Position numbers and translations under genes: made by a program. This document shows, in pieces, positions 586 through 30,362 of a stretch of DNA of 34,132 nt. This stretch comes from Candidatus Gastranaerophilales bacterium (GTDB lineage: Bacteria > Cyanobacteriota > Vampirovibrionia > Gastranaerophilales > Gastranaerophilaceae), in contig CALUWB010000018.1 of NCBI GenBank assembly GCA_944324375.1, positions 1 through 34,132 on the forward strand, read 5' to 3'. Positions within the stretch are counted from its first letter, which is position 1; each line of letters starts with the position of its first letter. The notes beneath the pieces were generated by a model. It saw only the letters and a program-made list of their open reading frames with translations. It was not told the DNA's origin and searched no databases.

Positions 586-3147
586 ATGGAAAATTTATTA
601 GCTAATTTAAATGAACAGCAGTTAGAGTCTGTTAAAACGACTAAAGGTTCTTTACTTATTCTTGCAGGTGCTGGTAGTGGTAAGACTAAAGTTTTAACTT
701 CTCGTATAGCTTATATGATTAAAAGTGGTGTAAGAGCCCATAATATATTGGCAGTAACATTTACTAATAAAGCAGCGAAAGAGATGCGTGAAAGGCTTTC
801 AGCTATTTTAGGAGAAGATGTTGTTAAGTATATGTGGGTTGGAACATTCCATAGTATTTGTGGTCGTATTTTAAGACAAGATATTGATAATTATTCTTTC
901 CAATCAGGTAAAAAGCTTGATAAAAATTTTACTATTTATGATGAACAAGATTCTATTGCTGTTATAAAACAAGCTATAAAAAAATTAAATCTTGATGATA
1001 AAACATATCAACCAAAACTTGTAAAAGCTGTTATTTCAAATGCAAAGAATAAAATGCAAGATGCTTATACATTTGCAACTTTTGCGAGAGATTTTAAATC
1101 TCAACGTATTGCTCAAATTTTTGAAGAATATGAAAATGCTTTAAATAATAATAATGCAATTGATTTTGATGATATGTTAATGCTTTGTGTAAAACTTTTA
1201 GAGCAAAATCCGGAGGTTAGAGAAAAATATTATTCACGATTTGAACATATATTAGTTGATGAATTTCAAGATACTAACCAAGCTCAATATAATTTAGTAA
1301 GAGCTTTGTATACAAATTATATTCCAGAAAATGAACTCCCTGAAAACCGTTCATTATGTGTTGTAGGCGATGTTGACCAATCTATTTATAGTTGGCGTGG
1401 GGCTGATTTTAAAATTATTTTAAATTTTCAAAATGATTTCAAAAAATGTAAGTTAATAAAATTAGAACAAAATTATCGTTCAACAGCTGCAATATTGAAG
1501 GCTGCAAATGCTATTATTGAAAATAATCAAGAACGCGTTGACAAGGTTTTATACTCAAATAAAGGTGATGGAGAAAAAATTACCTATTATGAAGCAGATG
1601 ATGAAGCTGATGAAGCTAATTTTATTGCATCAACTATAAAGAAAACTTCTGCAAATTATAATCAATTTGCGATTCTTTATAGAACAAATGCTCAATCTCG
1701 TTCATTAGAAGAAGCCTGTATTGCAGCTGGAATTCCTTATAAAATTTATGGGGGCTTAAAATTCTATGATAGAAAAGAAATTAAAGATGCTATTGCGTAT
1801 TTAAAATTGATTTATAATACAAATGATTCGCAAAGTTTTAAAAGAATTGTAAATGTGCCAAAGCGTTCTATTGGAGAAACGACCTTAAAACATTTGCAAG
1901 AATATGCAGATGAAAATGATATAAGTTTATTTCAGGCAGTAGAAAGAATAGAAGATATTTCTGCAATTACTGCAAAAACTCGTTCAAAATTGATTGATTT
2001 TGCAAAATTAATTACTAATTTTAAAGCAGTAGAAAAGAATTATCCATTACATGAATTTATTGGGCTTGTTATTGATAAAAGTGGTTATGTAAGAGAATTA
2101 GAGCAAGATGGATCTCCTGAAGAGCTTGCAAGAATAGAAAATTTACAGGAATTAGTAAATGTTGCAAGTGAGTTTGAACCTGAAGATAAAGATAATAGAT
2201 TAGGCGAATTTCTTGCTCAAGTTGCTTTGGTATCTGATATTGATGGAATGGAAGAAATTAGTAATAATGTTACATTAATGACTCTTCACTCTGCTAAAGG
2301 ATTAGAATTTCCAATAGTATTTTTAGCTGGTGTTGAAGAAGGAATATTCCCTCATTCAAGAACGTTTAATTCATTATCAGAGTTAGAAGAAGAACGAAGA
2401 TTGATGTATGTTGGTGTTACACGTGCAGAAGAAAAACTTTACATATCATCAGCTAAAAGAAGACAAATGTGGGGTGAATATAAATACTATAATCCAAGTA
2501 GATTTATAGAAGAAATTCCTCCTCAATTGTTAGATTCAACATCATCAAATGGTGAATATTCATCTGAAAGAACATTTAGAAGTGCTGTTAATAAAATAAA
2601 AGCAAATAATTCTAAATCAGAGTGGGGTAGTAGTTCAAAATCAACCTCTATTCCAACAGGAAGTTTTGGAACTAATTTTGTAGCACCTAAAGGTGTTCAA
2701 AGTTTAAGTACACCACAACGAAAATCTAATTCAGGGTTTGGTTCAGATTTTGTTGCTCCAAAAGGTGTTGGTGGTCTAAGTAATCGTTCTAATCGAACTC
2801 CTCAAAGGACAATTTTGGTAAAAAGTCAAAAAAATAAAGAAATGGCACAAAAAAGAGCAGAAGAAAGTGCTAAAAAGTTTTTTGAAAACAATTCGATAAA
2901 GAAAATGTTAGAAGAAAAAAGACAACAAGAAGCAATGCAAGCTCAGCAAATTAAAGAAAAAGAAGAAAAACAATCTCAAATCGAGTATTTCTTTAATGTT
3001 GGAGAAAGAGTATTTCACGAGAAATTAGGAATAGGACATATTTTAGACATTACACAAATTGGTGAAAGCACAATGTATACTATAGATTTTGGTAAAATGG
3101 GTAAAAAGGCAATGGACGCTGCTTATGCTCATTTAAAGAAATTTTAA
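586..3147 (+). CDS. pcrA: UvrD/PcrA-type superfamily 1A DNA helicase
   Basis: This is a 3'-5' ATP-dependent DNA helicase used in excision repair, replication restart and clearing of nucleoprotein. The 853-residue protein has the full SF1A motif set: Walker A GAGSGKT at residues 28-34, a DEFQD Walker B at 225, GDVDQSIYSWRGAD, the QNYRST motif, TLHSAKGLEF, and ERRLMYVGVTRAEEKLY. The last ~50 residues (VGERVFHEKLGIGHI onward) match the C-terminal Tudor-like domain of PcrA/UvrD that contacts RNA polymerase, which argues against Rep. Between the helicase core and this domain is a low-complexity linker. It contains a near-exact 15-residue duplication (residues ~694-708 and ~718-732) and then a Lys/Glu-rich predicted helix. 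The ATG follows GGAAATAGGGG. Confidence 0.97.
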   Translation: MENLLANLNEQQLESVKTTKGSLLILAGAGSGKTKVLTSRIAYMIKSGVRAHNILAVTFTNKAAKEMRERLSAILGEDVVKYMWVGTFHSICGRILRQDIDNYSFQSGKKLDKNFTIYDEQDSIAVIKQAIKKLNLDDKTYQPKLVKAVISNAKNKMQDAYTFATFARDFKSQRIAQIFEEYENALNNNNAIDFDDMLMLCVKLLEQNPEVREKYYSRFEHILVDEFQDTNQAQYNLVRALYTNYIPENELPENRSLCVVGDVDQSIYSWRGADFKIILNFQNDFKKCKLIKLEQNYRSTAAILKAANAIIENNQERVDKVLYSNKGDGEKITYYEADDEADEANFIASTIKKTSANYNQFAILYRTNAQSRSLEEACIAAGIPYKIYGGLKFYDRKEIKDAIAYLKLIYNTNDSQSFKRIVNVPKRSIGETTLKHLQEYADENDISLFQAVERIEDISAITAKTRSKLIDFAKLITNFKAVEKNYPLHEFIGLVIDKSGYVRELEQDGSPEELARIENLQELVNVASEFEPEDKDNRLGEFLAQVALVSDIDGMEEISNNVTLMTLHSAKGLEFPIVFLAGVEEGIFPHSRTFNSLSELEEERRLMYVGVTRAEEKLYISSAKRRQMWGEYKYYNPSRFIEEIPPQLLDSTSSNGEYSSERTFRSAVNKIKANNSKSEWGSSSKSTSIPTGSFGTNFVAPKGVQSLSTPQRKSNSGFGSDFVAPKGVGGLSNRSNRTPQRTILVKSQKNKEMAQKRAEESAKKFFENNSIKKMLEEKRQQEAMQAQQIKEKEEKQSQIEYFFNVGERVFHEKLGIGHILDITQIGESTMYTIDFGKMGKKAMDAAYAHLKKF

Positions 3148-3187
3148 ATTAACTAGCAAAAATATATTTTATTTGTTTTAAATAAAT

Positions 3188-3748
3188 ATGACCCCAATTA
3201 ATTTTAAAGCTAGTTTTTTAAAAACTGTATATATTCCTAAAAAAGTATCTGATTCTAATTATAAGAAACAGGAAGTTTCAATTGTTGAATTAGATCCTAA
3301 AAATAAAAAAGATGTAATGGCATTAGCAGAAACTGCTTGTAAGTGGGAGAATGTAGCTCCTGGTTATTCATCTGAAATATATAACGAAGCTCTTAAAACA
3401 AAAATGTATCCAGATGTTATTGCTGAACATTATTACGCATTAACTAGGCAAAATGAAGACTATGAAAATTTGTCTGCTGATAAAATATTAGGTTTAGCTT
3501 TATATTCTGAAAAAAATGATATTCATAATGAATTAAATTGGTTGCAAGTAAATCCTGAAACTAATAAAAAGAATTCTACAGAGAGAAAGTATAAAAATAT
3601 AGGAACTGAATTAGTTAATTATATAAAGCAAATTGCAGATAAACCGATATATGTTCAATCGGCAGATGATGCTATGAAATTTTACGAAAAAAATTCCTTT
3701 AAGCATATTGATTCAAGTTATCAAGCAATTATGCTTTGGCAAGGTTAA
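3188..3748 (+). CDS. GNAT-fold acetyltransferase-like protein with N-terminal INFKA motif
   Basis: This 186-residue protein starts 40 bp after the helicase. The C-terminal half resembles a GNAT acyl-CoA transferase core: a beta strand ELNWLQVNPETN, then YKNIGTELVNYIKQ, which sits where the acetyl-CoA pyrophosphate-binding loop and following helix occur, then PIYVQS and AMKFYEKNSFKHI, the usual GNAT 'yekxGF' ending. The pyrophosphate loop is degenerate compared with the Q/RxxGxG/A consensus. The substrate is unknown. The N-terminus MTPINFKASF carries a short motif that recurs in other unrelated proteins here. No Shine-Dalgarno is obvious. The GNAT assignment is by motif order only, so catalytic activity is not certain. 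Confidence 0.65.
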   Translation: MTPINFKASFLKTVYIPKKVSDSNYKKQEVSIVELDPKNKKDVMALAETACKWENVAPGYSSEIYNEALKTKMYPDVIAEHYYALTRQNEDYENLSADKILGLALYSEKNDIHNELNWLQVNPETNKKNSTERKYKNIGTELVNYIKQIADKPIYVQSADDAMKFYEKNSFKHIDSSYQAIMLWQG

Positions 3749-3783
3749 ATTTTTTTATTAAAAAGTTTAATTAATAGATTATT

Positions 3784-3812
3784 TTGTAACAAAATGTTAA
3801 GATAATTATAAT
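3784..3812 (+). promoter_or_regulatory. Promoter TTGTAA-17-TATAAT for the 4067 gene
   Basis: TTGTAA at 3784-3789 and a perfect TATAAT at 3807-3812 are 17 nt apart, the best-spaced consensus pair in this gap. Transcription from it would start near 3819 and leave a leader of roughly 250 nt before the ATG at 4067. Confidence 0.6.
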
Positions 3813-3818
3813 CCTTTG

Positions 3819-4066
3819 GTTAATATAATAAAATTAATGAAAATGTCTAAGATCCTTTATTGATAAGGTTTTTCTTGCTTTTATGTTTTTTGATGATAAA
3901 TTTGAACTTTGATTATAAAAAGTAGCTTAAAACCATGTAGGGACATGGTTTTAAGCCTCTTTACTATTTGCTCTTAGACCATATGGTCTATAAATAGTTT
4001 AATCTTTGGGTTGATGTTCCATCTGTATAAAACATGTACTCTATCATTAGGGAGAGAGAAAAATTC
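3819..4066 (+). promoter_or_regulatory. Long 5' leader with two ACCAT/ATGGT dyads
   Basis: The 318-base gap between 3748 and 4067 holds no convincing gene. After the promoter it contains a perfect 14-bp inverted repeat (3925-3938 with 3943-3956, loop AGGG), and then a perfect 16-bp palindrome TAGACCATATGGTCTA (3975-3990). Both dyads share ACCAT/ATGGT half-sites. No run of T follows either, so they do not look like intrinsic terminators. They could be a structured leader or protein-binding operators; the sequence alone does not decide. Confidence 0.45.
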
Positions 4067-5116
4067 ATGAAAAAAGTATTTTTAGTATTATTTATTAGTT
4101 TATTTACTGCGATGTCTGTATTGGCATCTGATAACGTGCTTCAAAGTGTTCAAATTGAACCAATGGGTGATAGTTTTAATATTGTATTAGTGGCTGATAA
4201 TTCTGTTTCAATCAAGAAAACAGTTCAAGCTCCTAATAGAATAATGTTAAGTTTGAAAGGTATAAGAGCTTCAAAAACATTAAGTACAATATATAAAAAT
4301 GTTTCAAATGTGGACAATATTATTGTTGAACCATTTGGGGTAGATGGTTTAAATATTATGTTTCAAGCAGAGAATGCATCAAATGCTTCTGTAACGTTTG
4401 ATTCTATTGTTTCTTCTGTAAAAGTTCAAGATAGAGCAAATCCTAAAAAAGAAATATTATTAAATGCTCCAATAAATACTTATTCTCCAATATATAAACA
4501 AGAAGAAGATACAACAAAATCATCTGTATTATCAAATATTCATTATTCTGGTTTAATATCATTGATTAAAAGAAGTTTATCAGGAAAAACAACTGGAACA
4601 ATGTTAACATTTGGATTTTTCGGCCTTTTATTCTTGTTAGGTGCTAAATTAATAAGAGGTAAGGATAATGAAATAACAGTTGGTTTATCTCAGGGTTTGC
4701 GTAATAGAGATATTAACAACACAAAAGAGGTTGTTAATCTTACTCCAGGGTATAAAAATGCTACAAACAAGCCATATACAACAATGAATTATGGATTAAG
4801 AGCATATCAAAACAGTACTCAATCTCCTTATTTACAACATAATAATAGTTCTTTAACAGCTCAAAAATTATCTTCATTGCCTAAAAGGAATTTAATGGCT
4901 GATTCAGTATCTAGTAATAATTCTGTAAGAAGAAATGTATCTTCTCAAACAAGAGTTCCTAGGCCACAACAAAATGTTGCAACTCAAACAAAAATTCAGC
5001 CAAAACGAGTTGACAGTATGAAATTTTTAGAATCAATGTCTGAAATTTATGAAAAAAGTGGACGTCCTGATTTAGCAAATGGTATAAGAACTAAATTAAC
5101 TAAAATTAATAGATAA
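4067..5116 (+). CDS. AMIN-like exported protein with internal membrane helix
   Basis: I take the ATG at 4067, which follows GGGAGAGAG at good spacing and gives a clean signal peptide (MKKVFLVLFISLF, ending about ALA-S). The in-frame ATG at 4034 would put charged residues ahead of that signal. The mature N-terminal region (about residues 22-130) alternates short beta strands in the manner of AMIN domains, the periplasmic peptidoglycan- or envelope-binding modules of PilQ and AmiC. A hydrophobic helix near residues 175-195 (FGFFGLLFLLGAKL) is followed by a long Asn/Ser/Gln-rich tail and a short terminal helix (MKFLESMSEIYEKSGR). No PilQ secretin domain is present. A role in envelope organisation is inference. 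Confidence 0.6.
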   Translation: MKKVFLVLFISLFTAMSVLASDNVLQSVQIEPMGDSFNIVLVADNSVSIKKTVQAPNRIMLSLKGIRASKTLSTIYKNVSNVDNIIVEPFGVDGLNIMFQAENASNASVTFDSIVSSVKVQDRANPKKEILLNAPINTYSPIYKQEEDTTKSSVLSNIHYSGLISLIKRSLSGKTTGTMLTFGFFGLLFLLGAKLIRGKDNEITVGLSQGLRNRDINNTKEVVNLTPGYKNATNKPYTTMNYGLRAYQNSTQSPYLQHNNSSLTAQKLSSLPKRNLMADSVSSNNSVRRNVSSQTRVPRPQQNVATQTKIQPKRVDSMKFLESMSEIYEKSGRPDLANGIRTKLTKINR

Positions 5117-5145
5117 TAAAATACATTTTATAATAAGCACATTTA

Positions 5146-5173
5146 AAGCCGGTTAAATCACCGGCTTTTTTTT
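5146..5173 (+). terminator. Intrinsic terminator after the AMIN-like gene
   Basis: AAGCCGGT (5146-5153) pairs with ACCGGCTT (5160-5167) around a 6-nt loop, followed by eight T (5166-5173). It lies between convergent genes. On the minus strand only a short T run follows, so it serves mainly the plus strand. Confidence 0.85.
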
Positions 5174-5192
5174 CTAAATAAAATTTAAATAT

Positions 5193-5477
5193 TTAACCAA
5201 TAGTGTGCATAGTATCAAAGATTTCTTTTCTTTGTACCCATATTTCCATTCCTAAATTTTCTCCTTCTTTATGAAGTTTATCTTTTATATCTTTAAAAGA
5301 AACTTGAGAATTGTTAATATCACAAAGCATAAACATTACAAAATGTCCTTGCATAAGTGTTTGTTTAATGTCTTCAATATTAACATTCAATTCTGCTAAT
5401 ATAGTAGCAACTTTTGCAACTATTCCAACTTTATCAGTTCCTGATACTGTAATTATAATTTTATTATTAGTTGTCAT
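5193..5477 (-). CDS. Stand-alone ACT domain protein (UPF0237-type)
   Basis: The 94 residues form a single ACT-type regulatory domain. They begin KIIITVSGTDKVGIVAKVA, continue ELNVNIEDIKQTLMQGHF, and end WVQRKEIFDTMHTIG, the characteristic finish of the UPF0237 family. Relatives include the GcvR-like regulators, and ACT domains generally bind amino acids. It is the last gene of a three-gene minus-strand unit, 11 bp after the TPR gene, with AGGAAAGGAT as ribosome binding site inside the end of that gene. The ligand and target are unknown. It should not be taken as the small subunit of the acetolactate synthase homologue at 14.5 kb, which it resembles only in being an ACT protein. Confidence 0.85.
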   Translation of the reverse strand: MTTNNKIIITVSGTDKVGIVAKVATILAELNVNIEDIKQTLMQGHFVMFMLCDINNSQVSFKDIKDKLHKEGENLGMEIWVQRKEIFDTMHTIG

Positions 5478-30286: not shown

Positions 30287-30302
30287 TATTTTTTATAAAA
30301 AT

Positions 30303-30331
30303 AAAAAGCTCCGATTAATTCGGAGCTTTTT
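30303..30331. terminator. Bidirectional intrinsic terminator
   Basis: AAAAGCTCCGA (30304-30314) pairs with TCGGAGCTTTT (30320-30330) around a 5-nt loop, with A and T runs on the two sides. It separates the exported-protein gene from the convergent min operon and can serve both. Confidence 0.88.
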
Positions 30332-30362
30332 ATTAATAAAATCAAACGAAATAAGTTTTATT

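Follow-up and report, generated by a model that had tools for sequence, protein, structure and literature searches.

The region ahead of an AMIN-like gene in a Gastranaerophilales genome raises the question of whether it holds an operator or a structured RNA. Gastranaerophilales are a non-photosynthetic lineage beside the Cyanobacteria; the window (the whole stretch of 34,132 nucleotides that was analysed) is contig 18 of a 103-contig, 2.03 Mb genome. The preliminary description listed a promoter, a perfect 14-bp stem with a 4-nt loop and a perfect 16-bp palindrome with ACCAT/ATGGT half-sites in common with the stem, and proposed a cis-regulatory RNA, a small RNA or a two-site operator. These elements are all present and the common half-sites are real. 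An operator is the kind of element that we favour, although the partner of the palindrome is a dyad at 4001–4016 and not the hairpin.

The palindrome (TAGACCATATGGTCTA; 3975–3990) is perfect over 16 bp. The window contains 3 perfect palindromes of at least 16 bp compared with a shuffle mean of 1.7, and 1 with at least 6 G/C compared with 0.15 in shuffles; given the AT-rich window, palindromy alone is near chance and the real support comes from conservation. The palindrome core is the dyad GACC-N4-GGTC (3977–3988, unstranded), centred about −66.5 from the predicted transcription start. The proximal dyad, AATC-N4-GGTTGATG (that is, AATC-N4-GGTT and then GATG; 4001–4016, + strand), follows 24 bp downstream of the palindrome. 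Exactly 20 nt after the GATG stands the −10-like hexamer TACTCT (4037–4042, + strand), with a weaker −10-like hexamer 6 nt further down as an alternative. Judged from these positions, transcription could start at about 4049, or at about 4055 with the second hexamer, and the predicted leader (4049–4066, + strand) would comprise 18 nt, including the Shine–Dalgarno sequence AGGGAGAG. Class II activator sites are usually found near −41.5, overlapping the −35 region; the proximal dyad would be centred at about −42.5 if the predicted start at 4049 is correct.

We aligned the locus in 8 genomes of the genus, with all loci oriented alike. Over the stretch that begins at the hairpin and reaches the start codon, the palindrome core, the GATG and the Shine–Dalgarno sequence are fixed. 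GACC-N4-GGTC is unchanged outside the N4 in all eight genomes, and TTAGGGAGAGAG within the predicted leader is the same in 8/8. The −10-like hexamer reads TACTCT in seven genomes and TAATCT in one. This stretch is strongly conserved although three of the eight genomes have different upstream genes.

The same layout is found at other AMIN-like loci. The gene was detected in 54 of the 58 genomes searched, and 30 loci were returned; a TANNNT-type hexamer lies 19–21 nt after GATG in 27 of them, and at exactly 20 nt in 26. Among 27 AMIN rows, in which the GATG is fixed by the row selection itself, most have AAYC-N4-GRTY before the GATG, and the flanks of the proximal dyad are conserved. The best upstream dyad lies 22–27 nt (24 rows) or 33–34 nt (3 rows) before the GATG, two gap classes about a helical turn apart, and fits RAYC-N4-GRTY strictly in 25 of the 27 rows. 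A stricter automated rule, drawn from the same loci that it accepts (some of them near-identical), takes 26 of the 30 AMIN loci compared with 6 of 6,000 dinucleotide shuffles; because the eight genus loci and L017/L018 are close relatives, the 26 accepted loci are not independent. The rule misses L028, which has a 21-nt spacer; L030, which has GATG-20-TATTCT without a scoring upstream dyad; L031, which begins inside the gene; and L032, whose layout does not fit. When 288 genomes of the family were scanned with the strict core pattern GRTTGATG-N13-AAA-N4-TANNCT, there were 50 matches and 1 control match. An AMIN homologue (blast or phmmer) lies behind 25 of the 30 core-pattern loci that were inspected; those without one are L099, L100, L101, L106 and L127, of which L106 is AMIN-like by eye. 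A MerR-type operator within the long spacer was considered and dropped, as the columns of the 20-nt spacer hold no dyad.

The architecture also recurs 5′ of other genes, and does so in front of orthologues. TAGACC-N4-GGTCTA occurs without mismatch exactly twice in each of the 8 genus genomes, once 5′ of the AMIN-like gene and once 5′ of SLT-flgF (8/8). With one mismatch, the genus has 21 sites compared with 14 for the reversed pattern, and imperfect sites are therefore hardly in excess. A sequence-only profile (R1), trained on 12 AMIN rows, 1 regulator row and 2 flagellar rows, returned 107 matches at E ≤ 1e-3 in 58 genomes, a count that includes these 15 training rows: 39 are 5′ of the AMIN-like gene, 15 are 5′ of a regulator gene and 53 are elsewhere. 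We inspected 41 of the 53 (12 lie outside the inspected set) and found 18 in front of the SLT-flgF operon, of which 8 belong to the genus, 8 in front of a TPR gene, 4 in front of a gene for a small protein, 2 in front of a FliMN-domain gene and 9 in front of none of these. Six weaker matches (E of 0.001–0.0053) were divided between the TPR gene (3) and none (3). A conserved protein of about 112 amino acids is encoded behind the operator in L178, L191, L195 and L201; the one member scanned had no Pfam match.

The second operon in this genome opens with SLT and then a gene for a FlgEFG-family protein; it includes FlgA and FlgN, identified by Pfam, and flgG, flgH, flgI, flgJ, flgK and flgL, named by eye. 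Genome-wide, R1 matches the regulator promoter (C52, E = 0.06), the TPR gene (C46, E = 0.10) and the FliMN-FliO-FliP-FliQ-X-FliR cluster (C28, E = 0.235), and scores better at places without a sensible target (C20:9328, E = 0.0035; C52:8274, E = 0.0053, within coding sequence). As the three matches are weak alone, the membership of these genes rests on their orthologues. When this genome was searched for the tandem arrangement at fixed spacing, allowing up to 3 mismatches, the window site was the sole match; the flagellar site, with a gap of 33, is invisible to such a pattern. With 1 mismatch allowed, GGTTGATG-N20-TANNCT gave 5 matches in this genome compared with 9 in the control, and one of the five is the FliMN site.

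One of the genes that R1 points to encodes a response regulator of the NarL/FixJ type, with receiver and GerE (LuxR-type helix–turn–helix) domains; at E ≤ 1e-60, 54 of 58 genomes contain it. The homologue in G030 matches Response_reg at 9e-24 and GerE at 3.6e-20, and the truncated copy in this genome does so at 2.7e-18 and 1.3e-19. The gene order here is regulator, histidine kinase, flgB, flgC, fliE. The regulator gene falls at a contig break (the end of C52 and the start of C20), and its operator was therefore assigned from relatives. Across 30 regulator loci the recognition helix (ISETTVKTHVN) is invariant, as the operator motif is conserved too. A script-based examination of 13 regulator promoters showed GATG-20/21-TANNNT in 12 of them, with a spacing of 21 nt in nine, and a full upstream dyad in only one, that of G030; by eye, the regulator promoters of the genus have a TATAGACC half-site and then an imperfect partner. 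A second −10-like hexamer, 6 or 7 nt downstream, can also be seen by eye in flagellar and regulator promoters. The kinase matches the FlgS model weakly (48.7 bits; cut-off 600), and other kinase models score higher.

On these sequence comparisons, we think it probable that the region is a double-stranded-DNA operator–promoter, with tandem dimer sites for a NarL/FixJ regulator that activates a flagellar and type III export regulon. A dimeric activator would bind both inverted repeats, GACC-N4-GGTC and AATC-N4-GGTTGATG, and, acting as an activator and not a repressor, would recruit RNA polymerase to a promoter that has a −10-like hexamer and no standard −35. Transcripts of the AMIN-like gene would then begin at about 4049 and have a very short leader. 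The most likely activator is the NarL/FixJ response regulator whose gene precedes the histidine kinase and flgB-flgC-fliE, and its targets would be its own promoter, the flagellar rod/hook operon, the FliMN-FliOPQR cluster, the TPR gene and the window gene.

The operator–promoter could be real and have another ligand: either a different transcription factor or a sigma factor specific to the lineage that recognizes GATG(TT) as a −35 at 20-nt spacing. In favour of this, the distance from the GATG to the −10 varies less than the spacing of the dyads, and the sites that we assign to the regulator could be occupied by some other DNA-binding protein that these genomes share. We nevertheless consider such a ligand unlikely, because the two-fold symmetric upstream dyads, at gaps of 22–27 or 33–34 nt, fit a dimeric activator, because the spacing of 20 at AMIN-like genes becomes 21 at 9 of 12 regulator promoters, and because R1 matches the region upstream of the regulator gene itself in 15 genomes.

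Far less credible is a cis-regulatory RNA or small RNA that starts from the TTGTAA–TATAAT promoter and uses the hairpin and palindrome as stems. The sequence TTGTAA-17-TATAAT is indeed present (3784–3812), but 3000–5300 contains 12 promoter-like sites compared with a shuffle mean of 15.7, and the match alone is therefore not evidence; a promoter at TATAAT (3807–3812) is possible. What speaks for an RNA is the strong fold around the hairpin (3905–3975; −22.9 kcal/mol, z = −4.7) and a block at about 3791–3821 that is conserved in the genus, including the three genomes with a different upstream gene. A tentative third, distal dyad, AATC-N4-GGTT (3810–3821, unstranded), overlaps the TATAAT; its AATC is retained in 8/8 genus genomes, those with a different upstream gene included, and its other half is less retained. 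Several results count against an RNA. Rfam has no match at gathering score in the window, the palindrome region (3962–4066) folds no better than shuffles (z = −0.66), and the palindrome recurs at the promoters of other genes. Covariation, which the preliminary description had suggested as a check of the leader, is not above shuffles for the hairpin by any measure in the 8 genus sequences, and three hairpin pairs are broken in 3–4 of the 8 rows. Nor was the hairpin spotted by eye, in a search that was not systematic, in the printed upstream regions of other genera. A structured leader is also unlikely with a core promoter downstream of the palindrome: the predicted starts at about 4049 and 4055 both lie downstream of 3990, a position of the start that the preliminary description itself had set against a leader. 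The small RNA is unsupported in the same way, with no Rfam match and neither covariation nor a palindrome-region fold above shuffles.

The hairpin (GCTTAAAACCATGT-AGGG-ACATGGTTTTAAGC; 3925–3956, unstranded) is well above chance. The window has 2 places with a stem of at least 14 pairs and a loop of 3–8, whereas 60 shuffles produced no such stem. The other long perfect stem, at 30300–30334 (15 bp, loop of 5), lies between converging open reading frames and looks like a terminator. The arms of the hairpin carry ACC/GGT, 12 nt apart; across the 8 genus genomes 85.7% of the hairpin cells are paired, and three pairs are altered on both sides. Repeats of CATG half-sites (AGCATGGT and GAGCATGATTGAG types), both inverted and direct, resemble the hairpin arms and are found in several other genera, where they stand 5′ of the regulator gene (L073, L076, L077, L083, L086 and L087). 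Given these similar half-sites, the hairpin is possibly a further binding site; it may equally be a weak terminator or insulator, or have no role.

We give a little less than an even chance to the reading that the hairpin is unrelated to the operator and insulates the AMIN promoter as a terminator, either weak or bidirectional; this reading concerns the hairpin alone and is compatible with the operator–promoter explanation. A simple terminator scan marks the hairpin on both strands, upstream genes differ in 3/8 genus genomes, and T-rich stretches lie 3′ of the hairpin in G001, G004 and G006. The earlier observation that no T run follows is correct for the + strand taken strictly, as CTCTTTACTATTT comes next and there is no U tract directly 3′ of the stem in the window, but it is at odds with the scan. 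The missing U tract argues against a terminator, as does the inner CATG of both arms, which is fixed in 8/8 genomes, beyond the needs of a terminator.

The AMIN-like gene (4067–5116, + strand) encodes 349 amino acids without a Pfam match at 0.001. The product has a signal peptide (by eye), a confidently modelled beta domain, a long helix that, in the model, is likely to span the membrane, a low-confidence linker and conserved C-terminal helices. The best structural match of the modelled beta domain is the AMIN region of AmiC (4bin residues 33–133; Z = 8.0 over 96 residues, r.m.s.d. 3.2 Å), with a Z at the edge of unrelated folds, followed by chain Qa of the pilus machine 3jc8 (Z = 6.6), which we take to be PilQ. 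In the sampled family, the long form of the gene (open frame of 360–441 amino acids) is found in 19/19 genomes with two FliP genes and the short form (196–334 amino acids) in 69/69 genomes with one; one genome without a FliP match has the short form. The sampled genomes are related, yet genus g22 holds both states. AMIN length thus tracks FliP number, and the C-terminal half accompanies a second FliP. AMIN matches occur in 100 of 115 genomes with FliP compared with 2 of 30 without, a co-occurrence on which we do not rely because it follows the tree, because 15 FliP genomes of other families have no AMIN match and because, outside the order, the matched part is mostly about 100 residues within a longer protein.

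One FliP gene (G000:C5:35026–35601; L239) lies in FliP-FliQ-FliR and matches TIGR01103 with 280 bits; another (G000:C28:14049–14624; L235) lies in FliMN-FliO-FliP-FliQ-X-FliR and matches it with 228 bits. Both pass the FliP cut-off, and the C28 protein is closer to SctR than is the C5 protein. The second FliP could serve either the flagellum or another export system. In G013, which has one FliP, the regulator and a shorter kinase are kept with no flgB-flgC-fliE behind them (L240), and a FliMN-FliP-FliR cluster has the order of the second type (L241). R1 matches the G013 AMIN site (L242, E = 6.9e-8) and has no match at E ≤ 1 in the stretches with the regulator or the FliMN cluster. It is conceivable, although we lean somewhat against it, that the NarL/FixJ two-component regulon of this lineage controls a second export cluster of the FliP type as well as the flagellum, and that it outlived the latter. 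Relatives with one FliP would, on this equally tentative account, keep the regulator, a kinase, the second export cluster and the AMIN gene together with its operator, and the AMIN protein would lose its membrane/cytoplasmic half. The lack of R1 matches in L240 and L241 counts against this account.

Flagellar genes have been reported in the Gastranaerophilales group (Di Rienzi 2013; PMC3787301). According to Soo 2014 (PMC4040986), only 3 of the 9 Gastranaerophilales genomes then available had complete flagellar sets, and the other 6 had only a subset, insufficient for a functional flagellum. A shared operator, if true, would mean that the retained subset is still regulated, which bears on the puzzle posed by these genomes (PMC4040986). 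Among open-access titles and abstracts on flagella, type III secretion, two-component systems and NarL, we found no description of this regulon or of any flagellar regulator in Melainabacteria or Gastranaerophilales. What appears to be new here is a flagellar regulon linked to a putative NarL/FixJ regulator, with tandem repeats that have 4-nt spacers. For the non-photosynthetic relatives of Cyanobacteria, it provides a testable regulator of flagellar and type III export genes, together with a candidate binding site and a list of candidate targets.

Several known systems resemble the proposed one in part. FlgS/FlgR of Campylobacter and Helicobacter is a two-component system tied to flagellar genes, and the kinase in this genome weakly matches FlgS; however, FlgR is of the NtrC type and acts with sigma-54, whereas the regulator here is of the NarL/FixJ type and its promoter has a −10-like hexamer. 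DegU is itself of the NarL/FixJ type. At the Bacillus subtilis fla/che (flgB) promoter, as described in PMC2245950, this response regulator of a two-component pair has two inverted-repeat-like sites, but the spacing within them is 11 and 2 nt, their positions are −95/−69 and +119/+136, and DegU acts there with SwrAA. The system proposed here has 4-nt-spaced repeats at about −66 and −42 from the predicted start, and the regulator gene stands next to the kinase gene and flgB-flgC-fliE. According to PMC4797271, ComA of Bacillus subtilis shares its HTH superfamily with NarL, and a 4-nt spacer is optimal for its binding to inverted repeats. It has a second binding unit shortly downstream, as the window site would; it differs in its half-site (TTGCGG), in its quorum regulon and in its second unit, where the repeat is direct and the spacer 5 nt long (PMC4797271).
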